Origin: Mycobacteriales bacterium
GTDB taxonomy: Bacteria; Actinomycetota; Actinomycetes; Mycobacteriales; SCTD01
Assembly: GCA_030697205.1 (NCBI GenBank)
Contig: JAUYQP010000003.1
Location: 1-49,927 of the forward strand
DNA length: 49,927 nt
Direction of reading: 5' to 3'
Part shown: piece by piece, positions 10,550 through 36,848 of the stretch
Layout: each line of letters starts with the position of its first letter
How positions within the stretch are numbered: the first letter of the stretch is position 1
Notes under the pieces: model-generated
The model's database searches: none
What the model saw: only the letters and a program-made list of their open reading frames with translations
Told to the model about the DNA's origin: nothing
Made by a program: the position numbers and the translations under genes

Positions 10550-12469
10550 GTGCCCGCGCCCCGTCTCCTGCCCGTCGGGCTGCTGCTCGTGGCCACGCTG
10601 ACGGGCGCCTCGCCCGCGCAGGCCGCCGACGGGACGCTGCTCCCGCGCGTCCCCGGCTCGGAGACGCAGGCGGTCGTCGGCAGCGGGGGCGCGTGGTGCT
10701 GGTTCTCCGACCCGCGGTCGGTGCACGTGCCCGGCCCCGCCAAGCGCACCTTCGCCAGCTGGATCGACGCCGAGGGCAGCATCGTCGTCAGCGCCTACGA
10801 CCACACCACCAAGCGGCTTCAGTCGGCTGTGGTGCGCACCGCCTTCGTCGTCGACGACCACAACAACCCGTCGCTGCTGCGCCACGCCGACGGCCGGGTG
10901 TCGGTCTTCTGGTCCGGCCACAACGGCCCCGCGATCCACATCCGCACGACGAGCCGGCCCGGTGACGTCACGAGCTTCGCGCCGACCCGCACGATCACGT
11001 CGTTCGTGCCGGGCGACAGCGTCGTCACCTACACCAACCCGGTCCGCGTCCCCGGCGAGGGCGACCGCATCTACCTGTTCTTCCGGTCCGGCTACAGCCA
11101 CCAGGGCTACGTCACGTCCGACGACGACGGCGTCACCTGGTCGGCGGCGCGGGTGGTCGTGAGCAACGGCGACATGCGCCCCTACGTCAAGGTCGCCGGC
11201 GACGGCGGCAGCGGCATCGCGCTGGCGTTCACCGACGGGCACCCCGACGAGCTGACGAGCTCAGTGCGCTTCTCCCGCTACACCGCCGGCGAGCTGCGCG
11301 GCGCCGACGGGCGGCTGCTCGGCGCGCTCGCCGACGGCATCGAGGCGGGGCAGGGCGATCTGCTCTGGGACGGTCCCGCGACCGGCACGAGCGGCTGGGT
11401 GCACGACGTCGCGGTCGGCCCTGATGGGCTGCCGGTGGTCGTCTTCGCCACGATCCGCAGCACCACCGACCACCGCTACCACTGGGCCCGCTTCGACGGC
11501 ACCTCCTGGGTCGTGCGCGAGCTCGGCCCGGCCGGCGGCACGGTCGCGACCGGTGGCCGTGAGCGGTCCTACTCCGCCGGCATCACCCTCGACCACGACG
11601 AGCCCTCCGTCGTCTACCTCGCCCGCCCCGGCAGCGACCCGGCGATCGCCGAGGTCGAGCGCTGGACGACCCGCGACCACGGCGCGAGCTGGGTCGCCGA
11701 GGCCGTCACGTCGGCCAGCACCGAGACCAACCTGCGCCCCGTCCGCCCGCGCGGGCTACCCGACGGCCTCGACATGGAGGCGCTCTGGATGTCGGGTGCC
11801 TACCCGCACTTCACGACCTTCCGCACCTCGCTGCGCGGCACCGCCGCGGTCGTCCCCGGCCAGCCGGTCGCGACCACGACGCGCATCAACGCCGCGGTCC
11901 TGTCGGTCGTCCCCGGCTCCTCGCTGCGGGTCAGCGCGCGGCTCGTCGACCCGACCGGTGCCGCCGTCCTCGACCGCGAGGTGACGCTGCTGTCCCGACC
12001 GCTGGGGCTCACCACCTGGGGCCACGTCGCGGAGCTGCGCACCGGGCTCGACGGCCTGGTGCACTTTCAGCCCACTCCCGTCGGGTCGACGGAGTACGCC
12101 GTGACCTGGCCCGGCGACGACTCCTTCTCCCCCTCGCGCAGCCCGGCCGCGCTGGTCCGGTCGACGCGCCCGACGACCGCGCTGACCGCTGTGGTGACGC
12201 GCACCGCGCGGCTCGGTCGGAGCGTCACGACCGGTGCGCTGCTGCGCACCGGTGACGGTCGACCCGCAGCCGGCCAGCGCGTCGAGCTGCTCGGCCGGGA
12301 GCCCGGCACGACGACGGTGCGCGTGCTCGCGGCGCGCACGACCGGCCCCGACGGCCGCGTCCTGCTCCCGGCTCGGCTCGCCCGGCCCACGGACGTGCAG
12401 GTGCGCTTCACCGGCACCGCCACCCACGTCGGCAACGCCACCCCCTGGCGCCGCGTCACCCTCCGCTGA
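10550..12469 (+). CDS. Secreted BNR-4 repeat protein with C-terminal Ig-like domains
   Basis: This 639-residue protein has a classical signal peptide (PRLLPVGLLLVATLTGASPAQA, cleavage after AQA near residue 26). Residues about 35–420 form a propeller with AWCWFSDPRSV, DDHNNPSLLRHADGR, FWSGHNGP, TSDDDGVTWS and DHDEPSVVYL motifs typical of the BNR_4 family, found in polysaccharide lyases and exported sugar-binding proteins. Residues about 440–639 are Ser/Thr/Val-rich beta domains (two Ig-like or Big repeats). It probably acts outside the cell on a polysaccharide, but no catalytic residues can be assigned. It is divergent from pspA (130-nt gap) and has no gene partner. Confidence 0.8.
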   Translation: MPAPRLLPVGLLLVATLTGASPAQAADGTLLPRVPGSETQAVVGSGGAWCWFSDPRSVHVPGPAKRTFASWIDAEGSIVVSAYDHTTKRLQSAVVRTAFVVDDHNNPSLLRHADGRVSVFWSGHNGPAIHIRTTSRPGDVTSFAPTRTITSFVPGDSVVTYTNPVRVPGEGDRIYLFFRSGYSHQGYVTSDDDGVTWSAARVVVSNGDMRPYVKVAGDGGSGIALAFTDGHPDELTSSVRFSRYTAGELRGADGRLLGALADGIEAGQGDLLWDGPATGTSGWVHDVAVGPDGLPVVVFATIRSTTDHRYHWARFDGTSWVVRELGPAGGTVATGGRERSYSAGITLDHDEPSVVYLARPGSDPAIAEVERWTTRDHGASWVAEAVTSASTETNLRPVRPRGLPDGLDMEALWMSGAYPHFTTFRTSLRGTAAVVPGQPVATTTRINAAVLSVVPGSSLRVSARLVDPTGAAVLDREVTLLSRPLGLTTWGHVAELRTGLDGLVHFQPTPVGSTEYAVTWPGDDSFSPSRSPAALVRSTRPTTALTAVVTRTARLGRSVTTGALLRTGDGRPAAGQRVELLGREPGTTTVRVLAARTTGPDGRVLLPARLARPTDVQVRFTGTATHVGNATPWRRVTLR

Positions 12470-12495
12470 CCCGCCCACCCGGAACCCGCCCCCCG

Positions 12496-12554
12496 GATTG
12501 GGTGGCTTTCGTCGGCGCGCCGCGGCACGACACGCCGAGAAACCCCACCCAATC
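12496..12554. repeat. Dispersed 59-bp palindromic element, copy A
   Basis: Outer arms GATTGGGTGG (12496–12505) and CCACCCAATC (12545–12554) are perfectly complementary; an inner GTCGGCG/CGCCGA pairing follows. The element aligns over its full 59 bp, without gaps, to 36224–36282 (about 48 identical positions). The outer arm differs by T to C on the left and A to G on the right, i.e. a compensating change. It lies between two convergent genes, 26 nt after the BNR-4 stop, and could act as a bidirectional terminator. Confidence 0.85.
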
Positions 12555-12573
12555 TCAGGCGGGGCGGGGAGGG

Positions 12574-12663
12574 GCGGTGCGGTCGGGCGGTGCGGTCGGG
12601 CGGGGCGTGAGGGCGGCGCGGTCGGGCGGGGCGGGGCGGGGCGTAGGGACGGTCAGCGGGGCG
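12574..12663. repeat. G-rich minisatellite (13-bp units) before the coiled-coil gene stop
   Basis: GCGGTGCGGTCGG occurs twice in tandem (12574–12586, 12587–12599), followed by degenerate copies (GCGGGGCG, GGCGCGGTCGGG). In the transcript of the leftward gene ending at 12664 this is a C-rich, U-poor tail running into palindrome A, an arrangement compatible with a Rho-dependent terminator. Confidence 0.6.
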
Positions 12664-13440
12664 TCAGGGTGGGGGCGGGTCGGCCTGGCCGAGGGCGCGG
12701 CGCGACAGCGCCTCGGTCTCGGCGAGGCCCTCGCGCAGCCCGTCGAGCTCGGTGGCGAGCTCGGCGATCTCGGCCGCGCTGGTGTCGACCCCACCGCTCG
12801 TGGCGGTCAGCGCGAGCACCTCCGCGAGCCGCGCGACCAGGCCCTCGAGCCCGAGCGCGGTCGCCTCCATCCGGGCGAGCAGGGTGTCGCGGGCCTCGTC
12901 GAGCCGGGCCGCCACCGCGAGCCGGTCGCGCACCGCGGCCGACGAGCGCCGCAGCTCCGCGGCCTGCTCGGGGTTGGTCGCCGCGCGGGCCCGCTGCTCG
13001 AGCCGCTCGGCCTCGCCGTCGAGACCGTGCAGGTCGACCCGCGACTCGGCGGCCACCACGGCGGTCACCTGCGCCGCGACCCGCAGCAGCTCGTCGAGGG
13101 TGCGGCCGGCGTCGGTCGCGGCGGAGCGCACCGCGTCACCCGCGGCCCCCGTCGACGCCGTCCGGGCGAGGGCGTCGAGGGAGCGCACGGCCCCCTCCGC
13201 CCGCTCCAGCCAGTACGCCGGAGGGCTCCCCTTGGGCGGCCGGGGCAGCGCCGGTCGGCGTGCGGGTGCGGCCTCGCCACCACTGCCGGTGAGGACACCG
13301 GTGAGGACCTTCGCGCCGTAGACCCCTGCGCCGACCGCCACCGCAGCGGCCACCGGCGCCGCGAAGGCCCACGCGAGCCCGCCCGCGACGCCCGCGACGA
13401 CGAGACCCCACGGGTCGCGCAGCTCCTCCGACAGCGACAT
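12664..13440 (-). CDS. Membrane-anchored coiled-coil protein, function unknown
   Basis: The protein is 258 residues. A hydrophobic segment (about 12–50: GLVVAGVAGGLAWAFAAPVAAAVAVGAGV) is followed by a Pro-rich linker and a long Ala/Leu/Glu/Arg helical region (about 75–250) with heptad-like spacing. Its position directly downstream of the von Willebrand A/solute-binding gene (29-nt gap) in the same direction suggests a shared operon and a membrane partner role, as seen for similar pairs in actinobacteria. No family can be named with confidence. The ATG lies inside a short direct repeat. Confidence 0.7.
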   Translation of the reverse strand: MSLSEELRDPWGLVVAGVAGGLAWAFAAPVAAAVAVGAGVYGAKVLTGVLTGSGGEAAPARRPALPRPPKGSPPAYWLERAEGAVRSLDALARTASTGAAGDAVRSAATDAGRTLDELLRVAAQVTAVVAAESRVDLHGLDGEAERLEQRARAATNPEQAAELRRSSAAVRDRLAVAARLDEARDTLLARMEATALGLEGLVARLAEVLALTATSGGVDTSAAEIAELATELDGLREGLAETEALSRRALGQADPPPP

Positions 13441-24186: not shown

Positions 24187-24193
24187 GGTCGCG

Positions 24194-24199
24194 ACGGTA
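24194..24199 (-). promoter_or_regulatory. -10 box for leaderless ftsK
   Basis: TACCGT (leftward), then 7 nt (CGCGACC) to the ATG at 24186. It is one base wider than the other leaderless boxes here. Confidence 0.5.
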
Positions 24200-24212
24200 C
24201 CTCTGCAGTACC

Positions 24213-24239
24213 ACCCGTCACACCCGTCACACCCGCGAC
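24213..24239. repeat. 9-bp tandem repeat (three units) upstream of ftsK
   Basis: ACCCGTCAC, ACCCGTCAC, ACCCGCGAC occur head to tail, about 14 bp beyond the ftsK -10 box and overlapping its -35 region. It may bind a regulator on one face of the helix or simply be slippage-derived. Confidence 0.6.
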
Positions 24240-24280
24240 ACGCCGCCGCGCTCGCTTGTCCCCGCCCGCCCCCACTCGGA

Positions 24281-24328
24281 GACGTGGCGATCACGTCAGC
24301 GTGGCCCAGCGTGCGAGATCGCCACATC
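24281..24328. repeat. Intergenic palindrome B1
   Basis: Twelve-base arms (24281–24292, 24317–24328; one mismatch, core GTGGCGATC/GATCGCCAC) enclose 24 nt. The word GTGGCGATC recurs in palindrome B3 (24530–24538). This is part of the 453-nt gap between ftsK and rnj, which contains no gene. Confidence 0.75.
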
Positions 24329-24373
24329 CCCGCCCCCACCTCACCCGCCTCCCCCGCCTCCCTGTCGGCGCGA

Positions 24374-24459
24374 TCCTTTCTGCTTCCACCTCACCGTGCC
24401 GCTGGCGCTCCGCGGGCGGGCGACCTCGCCGAGTAGGTGCCAGGTGGAAGCAGAACGGA
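24374..24459. repeat. Intergenic palindrome B2
   Basis: Eighteen-base arms (24374–24391, 24442–24459) with one mismatch, of which 14 bp are perfect (TTCTGCTTCCACCT), enclose about 50 nt of GC-rich sequence. It has no T-run. By chance a 14-bp perfect arm at this spacing is improbable. Confidence 0.8.
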
Positions 24460-24500
24460 CCGCCGCCCCGGCCGTTACCGCCCCGCGGGCAGGCCACGAC

Positions 24501-24556
24501 GATCTTCGCCCCGTTGCGGTGCGCTGAGCGTGGCGATCCGCAACAGGGCGAAGATC
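24501..24556. repeat. Intergenic palindrome B3
   Basis: Nineteen-base arms (24501–24519 and 24538–24556) with one mismatch around an 18-nt centre. The flank plus left arm contains CACGACGATCTTC (24496–24508), a 13-mer also present in the right arm of palindrome C3 (36549–36561), so the elements in different gaps are related. Confidence 0.8.
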
Positions 24557-24570
24557 ACCGGGGGTTTCGG

Positions 24571-24639
24571 GGCGGGGCGCCGGGGCGGGCGGGCGGGGCG
24601 CCGGGGCGGGCGGGCGGCTGGCGGGGCGGGGCGGGCGGG
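24571..24639. repeat. G-rich 21-bp tandem repeat adjoining the rnj stop
   Basis: A 21-bp unit (starting GGCGGGGCGCC) is repeated exactly at 24571–24591 and 24592–24612, then degenerates up to the rnj stop at 24640. In the rnj transcript this is a C-rich, U-poor stretch leading into palindrome B3, as at 12574–12663. Confidence 0.7.
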
Positions 24640-35037: not shown

Positions 35038-35541
35038 ATGGCCGACGTCAGCGTGCGACCCGCCCGCCCCGAGGACGCCGAGCGAGCCGCCCGCGTGCAG
35101 CTGTCGACCTGGCGCACCGCCTACTCCGACCTGCTGCCGCCCGAGGTCCTCGACGTCCCCGAGGAGCAGGTCGCTGCCGTGTGGCTGCGCGGCGTCGAGG
35201 TCCCGCCCTCGCACCGCCACCGGCTGCTCGTCGCGATGGACGGCCCCGAGCTCGTCGGCCTCGCCGTCTCCGAGCCGGTCGACGACGCGACCGTCGAGCT
35301 GACCGCGCTGATCGTCGAACCGCGCTGGGGCCGGCGCGGTCACGGCTCCCGGCTGCTCGCCGCCTCGGTCGACCACTGGCGCGGCGACGGCGCGACCCAC
35401 GCGCAGACCTGGGCCTGGGAACGCGACGACGCGACCCGCTCCTTCCTCGAGTCCTCCGGCTGGGAGCCCGACGGCGTCGCCCGCTCGCTCGACACCGGCC
35501 AGCGCCAGGTCCGCCTCCACGTCTCCCTCGAGGAGTCGTGA
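35038..35541 (+). CDS. GNAT-family acetyltransferase (second of a tandem pair)
   Basis: The 167-residue protein has motif A IVEPRWGRRGHGSRLLAASV and motif B ERDDATRSFLESSGW. It shares the WRTAY N-terminal pattern with the preceding gene. It overlaps the DUF2461 gene by 4 nt (GTGA). Confidence 0.83.
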   Translation: MADVSVRPARPEDAERAARVQLSTWRTAYSDLLPPEVLDVPEEQVAAVWLRGVEVPPSHRHRLLVAMDGPELVGLAVSEPVDDATVELTALIVEPRWGRRGHGSRLLAASVDHWRGDGATHAQTWAWERDDATRSFLESSGWEPDGVARSLDTGQRQVRLHVSLEES

Positions 35542-36191
35542 CCTTCGCGGGGATCCCCGACGAAGCGCTCGCCTTCTACGAGGGCCTCGAGGCCGACAAC
35601 TCCAAGGCCTACTGGACCGACCACAAGCAGGTGTACGACGCCTGCGTCCGTGACCCGCTGCTCGCCCTGATGGCGGGCCTCGAGGCGGAGTTCGGCCCCG
35701 CGAAGCTGTTCCGGCCCTACCGCGACGTGCGCTTCTCCAAGGACAAGACGCCCTACAAGACCCACGCGGCCTTCGTGACCCGCGACGACGCCTCCGGGCT
35801 GCTCTACTGCCAGCTCGGTGCCGACGGGCTGTCCTTCGGCGGTGGCTACCACCACACGAGCACCGACCAGGGCCAGCGGCTGCGGGCGGCGGTCGCCGAC
35901 GACCGCACCGGCCAGGCGTTGACCCAGGTGCTCGCGCCGCTCGAGTCCGACGGGTGGGAGGTCGGCGGCGAACGCTACGTCCGGGTCCCGAAGCCCTACC
36001 TCCCCGACGCCCCTCGGGCCGAGCTGCTCCGCGCGAAGTCCCTCACGGTCTTCCGCCACCACGAGCCCGCGGAGTGGCTGCACGGCCCGGGGTGCCTCGA
36101 CCGGGTCGCGGCCGCCTGGCGCGCCGTCGGACCGCTCAACGACTGGCTCGCCACCTACGTCGGCCCGCCCCGCGACGTCGTCCAGCGCTGA
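35538..36191 (+). CDS. DUF2461-family protein
   Basis: The 217-residue protein starts FAGIPDEALAFYEGLEADNSKAYWTDHKQVYD and continues FRPYRDVRFSKDKTPYKTHAAF, both typical of the DUF2461 (TIGR02453) family. Family members have no established biochemical role. The GTG overlaps the GNAT stop, so the two are co-translated. Confidence 0.85.
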   Translation: MTFAGIPDEALAFYEGLEADNSKAYWTDHKQVYDACVRDPLLALMAGLEAEFGPAKLFRPYRDVRFSKDKTPYKTHAAFVTRDDASGLLYCQLGADGLSFGGGYHHTSTDQGQRLRAAVADDRTGQALTQVLAPLESDGWEVGGERYVRVPKPYLPDAPRAELLRAKSLTVFRHHEPAEWLHGPGCLDRVAAAWRAVGPLNDWLATYVGPPRDVVQR

Positions 36192-36223
36192 GGGTCGAGG
36201 CCCGCCGGCCCGCGGCACCTGGG

Positions 36224-36282
36224 GATCGGGTGGCTTTCGTCGGCGGGTCGTGCCGCGACACGCCGAGGACATCCACCCGATC
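36224..36282. repeat. Dispersed 59-bp palindromic element, copy C1
   Basis: Outer arms GATCGGGTGG (36224–36233) and CCACCCGATC (36273–36282). It is a homologue of 12496–12554, same length, with GTGGCTTTCGTCGGCG and CGACACGCCGAG conserved. The T-A pair of copy A is C-G here, so pairing is maintained. It lies 32 nt after the DUF2461 stop. Confidence 0.85.
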
Positions 36283-36301
36283 CGACGGGCCCGGACACCG
36301 A

Positions 36302-36379
36302 CAAGATCAACAGCACATGTGCACGCGCCCGTGCGGCAGACCGAGCGTGACCGCCGTACCTGATGTGCTGTTGATCTTG
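36302..36379. repeat. Intergenic palindrome C2
   Basis: Perfect 17-bp arms (36302–36318, CAAGATCAACAGCACAT, and 36363–36379) enclose 44 nt. It lies 19 nt after palindrome C1. Confidence 0.9.
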
Positions 36380-36465
36380 CCAGGGGCATGACACGAGGTG
36401 CGCGTGATGACGTGAGCCGGACCCTGCGCTGCGGGTCAGCGCGATCCGCACTCCGGCGTCCGACG

Positions 36466-36567
36466 GGTCGTGAAGATCGTCGTGAAGCAGTGCTCGCGGC
36501 GACAGGTCGCTGACCAGCGCTTTCACCGCTCGCAGGCCGAGGCCGCTACACGACGATCTTCACGACC
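36466..36567. repeat. Intergenic palindrome C3
   Basis: Perfect 19-bp arms (36466–36484 and 36549–36567, GGTCGTGAAGATCGTCGTG) enclose 64 nt. The right arm contains the 13-mer CACGACGATCTTC, shared with palindrome B3. Confidence 0.9.
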
Positions 36568-36848
36568 TCAGCCTCGGGAGCCACCGCCGCTGAGGCGCCT
36601 CGTGGCGGGAGGCGAACCCGGCCTGCAACGGCGCCCCCGGCGGCCTACCTGGACGCAGTCTCGGTCGATCGACCGCACCCTGGTGTGGACGGCTCACCGA
36701 GTCGGACTGCATCCGGACCGCGCCCCCGGCGTACGCCGTCGTCAGACCTCCCTGTCCGCTTCGCCACATTCGTGCGAACCTTTGTCGCTCCCCCGGGATC
36801 TCCAGCCTGACGACCCAGCGACAGGCAGCCGGCGGGAGGTGCACGGGG
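36568..36848 (+). other. Leader/promoter region of the sigma-factor gene, no gene seen
   Basis: No convincing coding sequence is visible here. A bulged dyad (TTCG…CGAA, about 36758–36778) is followed by CGAACC, which resembles an ECF -35 element, and GGGAGGT before the GTG at 36849. A self-controlled promoter is plausible; the elements are too weak to call. Confidence 0.3.

Follow-up and report, generated by a model that had tools for sequence, protein, structure and literature searches.

The 59-bp palindrome at 12496-12554 is one of 18 copies of a dispersed family, named here family A, which we read with a probability of about one half as a REP-like, short non-coding palindrome placed behind genes and forming a putative two-sided transcription boundary. 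The window, i.e., the whole stretch of 49,927 nucleotides that was analysed, is the entire contig C3 of the draft genome of an uncultured actinobacterium, 4,017,916 bases in 59 contigs (G000). It contains two copies of the family with the following features in and around them:

12496-12554, + strand: family A copy 1, 59-bp dyad, 77.3 bits with the covariance model; outer arm 12496-12505, middle 12506-12511, inner arm 12512-12521, 7-bp loop 12522-12528, mirror parts onward to 12554
36224-36282, + strand: family A copy 2, 59-bp dyad, 75.8 bits with the covariance model
10550-12469, + strand: gene with a BNR_4 match, upstream of copy 1, stop 26 nt before the copy
12664-13440, - strand: convergent gene beyond copy 1, without Pfam family, 3′ end 109 nt past the copy
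35538-36191, + strand: DUF2461 gene, upstream of copy 2, stop 32 nt before the copy

Both copies are 59 bp long and agree at 48 of the 59 positions, and the outer-arm pair 4/56 is T-A in copy 1 and C-G in copy 2, as described in the earlier note. The same note had placed the copies in gaps past the 3′ ends of rightward genes, which is borne out by gene stops at 12469 and 36191, and it had recognised no named repeat family; in agreement with this, no Rfam match over the gathering threshold was obtained in the whole window, nor any match at E ≤1 in the stretch that holds copy 1 (12400-12660). The pairing strings of the copies hold 22 (36224) and 20 (12496) Watson-Crick pairs. When the 26 outer positions were scored in every 59-bp window of the contig, these were the top values, which makes the two copies the most self-complementary sites of this length, and only three windows reached at least 19 pairs.

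The genome was searched with copy 1, followed by a covariance model built on the 18 copies. The model search the earlier note had proposed did reveal further copies: family A occupies 18 loci on 11 contigs, scoring 66-79 bits and each matched over all 59 positions, and the next match in the genome falls to 31.8 bits. This last match, rich in C runs, sits at the end of contig C20. When the C20 end is inverted, its alignment to the C10 end runs across the palindrome and on into a common outer flank. The match very probably represents the locus of the C10 end copy, read with errors, and the two were therefore counted as one. Oriented by resemblance to copy 1, the 18 copies align without gaps, all at exactly 59 bp, and share a layout of nested 10-bp outer arms (GATTGGGTGG / CCACCCAATC) and approximately 10-bp inner arms around a variable 7-bp centre.

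Cells that depart from the consensus are unevenly distributed along the element. On the left side they number 5/180 in the outer arm, 23/108 in the middle and 18/180 in the inner arm, in the loop 48/126, and on the right side 8/180 in the inner arm, 35/108 in the middle and 8/180 in the outer arm. Arm divergence is thus 3-10% vs. 38% in the loop, with no indels; the middle parts and the 7-bp centre are freer in sequence but fixed in length. Low divergence of the arms beside a variable loop of fixed length supports a constraint on both arm sequence and spacing. Every own-genome match to the 20-nt arm pattern with 0-2 mismatches lies within one of the 18 pairs, and with 3 mismatches there are 5 lone matches vs. 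1 for a control pattern. No linkage indicative of sub-families was found: mutual information over all 19 variable columns was 30.87 vs. 31.75 shuffled (the observed value being reached in 366 of 500 shuffles), and with the loop left out (12 columns) 10.81 vs. 10.14 (96 of 500). As the variable columns are unlinked, the family has no sub-families, a state unlike a recent burst, and the copies would be either old or each held under the same constraint.

The T-A/C-G exchange between the window copies had been taken in the earlier note as a compensating change implying selection on pairing. Results from the 18 copies do not support this. In the 25-pair structure 87.8% of the cells are paired vs. 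88.3% in shuffled alignments, changes on both sides are found in 3 cells, fewer than the 6.1 of the shuffles, and the covariation score is 0.081 vs. 0.091. With the partner register shifted, pairing drops to 36-51%, a result that speaks only for the register being correct. Column 4 is C in 2/18 copies and column 56 is G in 2/18, with single-side variants in one other copy (C4 with A56) and in another (T4 with G56); if the arms vary independently, at least one C4/G56 coincidence is expected with a probability of 0.22, and chance could have brought these two rare letters together in the C-G pair. With shuffles equal or higher over 18 copies and a coincidence of this probability, the compensating-change argument was rejected. 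The arms do stay largely complementary in the further copies, with 169/180 Watson-Crick cells in the outer and 155/180 in the inner arms, but only 52/108 in the middle.

Mismatches in the family are neutral with regard to strand. G-U cells (23) and A-C cells (21) are about equal in number, and the forward strand gives the better fold in 7/19 sequences (C20 included), i.e., no RNA-strand preference in folding was seen among these 19. T12 and A37 are invariant in all 18 copies and face variable partners, which is the pattern that sequence recognition would give. Judged from the sequences, family A is probably a dyad of the DNA and not an RNA hairpin under selection for pairing, and the strand-neutral mismatches together with the fixed length and the lack of covariation suggest a protein that reads the DNA.

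Genes around the copies were called with an in-house codon-usage script, in which two neighbours are weak calls (80 aa at locus C52b and 77 aa at locus C34b). None of the 18 loci lies inside a called gene. Both neighbours are known for 17 loci, with C10 and C20 merged and C7 omitted since its contig ends, and these are convergent in 9 cases, tandem in 8 and divergent in none (p = 0.025 vs. the divergent share of 18/92 gaps). Among the 92 gaps of at least 50 bp in the window and contig C52, a copy is present in 3/7 convergent, 4/67 tandem and 0/18 divergent gaps (convergent vs. the rest, Fisher p = 0.008). The nearest facing stop codon is 20-137 nt from the copy in 16/17 loci, the exception being C34b, where it is 306 nt off and the gene call is weak. 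A Pfam scan gave no common function for the 34 neighbour proteins, which include a BNR protein, DUF2461, D-Ala-D-Ala ligase, ParB, a GGDEF protein, a CRP-like regulator, patatin, subtilase, an aminopeptidase and some proteins without a Pfam family. At the tandem loci the orientation of the element agrees with that of the genes in 6/8 cases, disagrees in one and is ambiguous in one, which is only suggestive of a fixed orientation.

The flanks of the copies differ in strand composition. C prevails over the 60 nt ahead of the element, with a skew of -0.31 to -0.42 per 10-nt bin, and G over the 60 nt behind it (+0.28 to +0.43); by copy, 30-nt flanks are C-rich before in 17/18 and G-rich after in 15/18, with one copy at zero before and a C7 flank of only 13 nt. 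Over the first 40 nt past convergent stops the skew is -0.25 without a copy (8 ends) vs. -0.32 with one (6 ends), and past tandem stops -0.09 (59 ends) vs. -0.23 (4 ends). The C-rich stretch is hence partly general to convergent gene ends here, and less so to tandem ones. C-to-G skew flips of at least 0.5 occur 11 times in 199 kb, where 5 of them centre on copies, of which this sequence has 7, and 3 on a different palindrome; opposite, G-to-C flips occur 13 times in the same 199 kb, several just outside the same gaps. C runs near contig ends are possible sequencing errors. Compared with dinucleotide shuffles, stems in copy-bearing gaps are clearly unusual in tandem gaps (median z -3.78, 4 gaps) and only slightly so in convergent ones (-1.58, 3 gaps), and in gap C52e the best-folding stem is a different hairpin, closer to the stop.

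Position and composition together suggest that family A perhaps acts as a boundary for both neighbours. The arms would be read as a DNA sequence by a protein, which might be the agent of spreading, a DNA-binding protein of the host or both; where it now lies, the element would end or block transcription arriving from either gene. Rho favours C-rich, G-poor RNA. Given such RNA after the stop codon, Rho could act there and transcription could end at the barrier; a Rho-type ending of this kind would be a plausible picture.

In the available part of a REP survey (PMC3733652), REPs are described as extragenic palindromes located close to 3′ ends, where the neighbouring genes are unidirectional or convergent, with super-families GTAG and CGTC defined by terminal tags; several families may occur per genome, many with 20-100 units or fewer, and CGTC REPs have no dedicated transposase. 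MITEs (RUP, NEMIS, ERIC and others) are given there as non-coding inverted-repeat elements of 70-300 bp (PMC3733652), and within its main text, to the extent available, the words actinobacteria, mycobacter- and streptomyces do not occur. Family A resembles REPs in being multi-copy, extragenic and palindromic (18 loci, none in a called gene) and in its placement at 8 tandem, 9 convergent and 0 divergent loci. It differs in its size of 59 bp vs. the 20-40 bp stated for REPs in that part of the survey, in its longer, nested arms, and in having no adjacent paired units and no unpaired terminal GTAG or CGTC; its ends are GAT/ATC, paired in most copies, and GTGG is found solely within the paired arm. 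As form and place match REPs, and size and terminal tag do not, we filed the family as REP-like.

A search for RAYT (Y1_Tnp, PF01797) gave 0 matches in the genome vs. matches in 5/14 control genomes, although the gaps of a 59-contig assembly could hide one. RAYTs are linked to GTAG REPs only. An assignment to REPs proper was rejected on the 59-bp size, the absent tag and the Y1 transposase not found. For k = 2-9, between 33 and 295 of 300 shuffles attained the flank matches of the 18 copies that would mark a target-site duplication, with the minimum at k = 8. The absence of Y1_Tnp, of target-site duplications and of sub-families counts against the REP-like boundary reading. So do the partly general C-richness of gene ends, the opposite skew flips of similar frequency, the stems that do not always stand out from their composition, the better-folding hairpin in C52e and the absence of a U-tract at the window copies.

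Family A has the appearance of a new kind of REP-like repeat that is restricted to its lineage. A model search of 40 relatives (23 of the same family, none of the same genus) gave 0 matches at E ≤0.001, with the own genome as a control yielding 36 matches, the number given by 18 loci when both strands are counted. Among 396 further genomes of the order, the single match was a weak look-alike in G099; this search was less sensitive, scored only 13 candidates per genome and recovered 11/18 own-genome loci, so that its negatives are weaker than those of the 40-relative search. The G099 match (41.5 bits) is a single GC-rich hairpin of partial likeness, 1 nt past a called gene end, and was rejected as a homolog and counted as a structural look-alike. 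An exact pattern that fits 17/18 known copies (C52b excepted) found nothing in collections of genomes and of viruses, which may lack near relatives. Partial matches were obtained for 2 plasmid and 5 phage records, with a best E of 0.03 and none covering 80%. Within the open-licence literature, judged by title and abstract start, no title recognisably concerned such repeats in this group.

Several other explanations may be weighed against the REP-like reading. The first in rank, still unlikely in our estimate, is that the element is the binding site of a chromosomal DNA protein (gyrase, nucleoid or segregation), which would not be mobile and would be kept at 3′ gaps because no promoter is disturbed there. 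Such a site, as judged at the sequence level, would account for the fixed 59 bp with a variable centre, the strand-neutral mismatches and the star-like variation. It also fits the location of 5/18 copies on the 149-kb oriC contig C52 (binomial p = 0.0004, or 0.024 corrected for 59 contigs), which is better explained by a chromosome-organising site and counts against the REP-like reading. Yet 0/23 same-family genomes carry family A, unusual for a housekeeping site, and the parS-type sites of this genome are of a different, ordinary sequence near gyrB/gyrA. On C52, a dnaA-like gene is found at 91357, parB at 85513-86451, and parS-type GTTCCACGTGGAAC at 99692 and 99730, between gyrB and gyrA (dnaA, gyrB and gyrA being named by position and by eye). 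A link to ParB/parS, raised by the one copy behind parB, was rejected on these sites, which lie elsewhere. An RNA hairpin selected for pairing, either an intrinsic terminator or a stem protecting the 3′ end, comes after the binding site in our ranking and is rather unlikely. The stem lies past stop codons, as in intrinsic terminators, and folds with energies of about -31 to -45 kcal/mol; moreover, in the gap following parB, which holds a family A copy in the own genome, G005, G008 and G012 have unrelated long palindromes (3/12 same-family loci, judged by eye), as if any stem serves, and the remaining loci among these 12 have weaker palindromes, none, or overlapping genes. Against it stand pairing no higher than in shuffles and the strand-neutral mismatches and folds described above. 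Family A also differs from intrinsic terminators in its conserved primary sequence and fixed centre length, and the remaining terminator-like stems of the sample have short loops and varied sequences. No U-tract follows the stem at either window copy, the single such site lying in palindrome B.

An origin as a minimal MITE, made of two fused insertion-sequence ends and moved by the transposase of that element, is improbable. The family is a non-coding inverted repeat like MITEs, and its 26-bp imperfect inverted arms have abrupt edges, but it is shorter than the 70-300 bp given for MITEs in the available part of the survey. A parent insertion sequence in the own assembly was rejected, as there are no lone arms at 0-2 mismatches, hence no parent element, and no target-site duplications. 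That the copies are integron attC sites or relatives of these is hardly credible, despite the 59-bp size and an R-box-like GATTGGGT...ACCCAATC around the variable centre. By the usual criteria for attC (size, R-box-like motif and outer AAC), the outer letters are AATC rather than AAC. The integron integrase model gave 0 matches over its cut-off, and sub-threshold matches occur also in 14/14 control genomes; with no integrase match over the cut-off, and the copies scattered over 11 contigs instead of forming a cassette array, attC was rejected.

Comparison of the gaps of the genome with one another revealed further palindrome families, B, C and E. The window holds seven palindromes, with three each in two gaps, 24187-24639 (E, an ungrouped palindrome and G) and 36192-36848 (A, B and H), which look like gathering islands. 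Besides the two copies of family A these are:

36302-36379, unstranded: family B palindrome with 17-bp perfect arms and a 44-nt centre, 19 nt past copy 2
36466-36567, unstranded: palindrome H with 23-bp arms, the third palindrome of the copy 2 gap
24277-24332, unstranded: family E palindrome with a 50-bp core at 24280-24329 and 3 arm mismatches
24370-24463, unstranded: palindrome outside the named families, with 22-bp arms
24501-24556, unstranded: palindrome G with 19-bp arms, at a C-to-G skew flip

The dyads of family E measure 50 bp, with near-invariant arms of 14 bp (GGATGTGGCGATCA / TGATCGCCACATCC) and a free centre of 20-22 nt. Exact-arm copies number 16 in the own genome, 1 in G017 (another genus of the family) and 0 in the other 22 genomes searched. 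Allowing up to 3 mismatches, at least 29 copies are present in the own genome, single or in direct arrays of 2-3 with a spacing of 84-86 bp in 9/13 cases, as counted in the sequence around exact matches and in other examined stretches of this genome. The 13 intergenic loci with both flanks known are convergent in 4 cases, tandem in 9 and divergent in none, a placement like that of family A which favours the REP-like reading; one further copy falls within a called gene, and two loci lie where a contig begins. Sites of family E include C52:10513 and 10598, L166 2341-2560 and L176 2407-2625 in the own genome and L162 1501-1549 in G017. Some copies of families B and C have GATCAACAG and TCTGCACG strings in common. 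GATC is found in the outer arm of many palindromes (families B, C, E, G and H), where family A has mostly GATT. Per kb of palindrome, GATC occurs 23.7 times in the window and 10.8 times in C52, vs. 3.3 and 4.0 times per kb, respectively, in the remaining gap sequence.

Compared with counts expected from shuffles, palindromes with a score of at least 11 are present in the own genome in 4/7 convergent (0.6 expected), 21/67 tandem (3.9) and 1/18 divergent gaps (0.7), and in G009 in 5/19 convergent (1.0), 16/96 tandem (6.3) and 5/42 divergent gaps (2.4). In 300 kb around the oriC genes of G009 palindromes are present, with no palindrome family among the 40 gap matches listed. Two gaps of the own oriC contig (C52:72455-72825 and 140470-140834) are alike over about 220 bp and are candidates for the ydaO (cyclic di-AMP) riboswitch. 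At C7, C10/C20, C27 and C31 the contig ends no more than 115 bp from a family A or E copy, and C runs are seen at the window start (1-20) and where C7 and C20 end; the stems of such palindromes may break sequencing or assembly.

It is conceivable, though we consider it doubtful, that families A, B, C and E and the single-copy palindromes serve this lineage as interchangeable, sequence-specific and protein-bound gene boundaries, each family with its own protein, that they spread with no known REP transposase, and that a change from C-rich to G-rich sequence is centred on them. If true, this set of boundary dyads would be a REP-like system of a new mechanism in an actinobacterium. Family A itself occupies the niche of REPs without their tag or size, which makes the question of why such elements lie behind genes separable from that of how they spread. 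Its fixed length and free centre also lead to a direct question, namely which protein reads the dyad.
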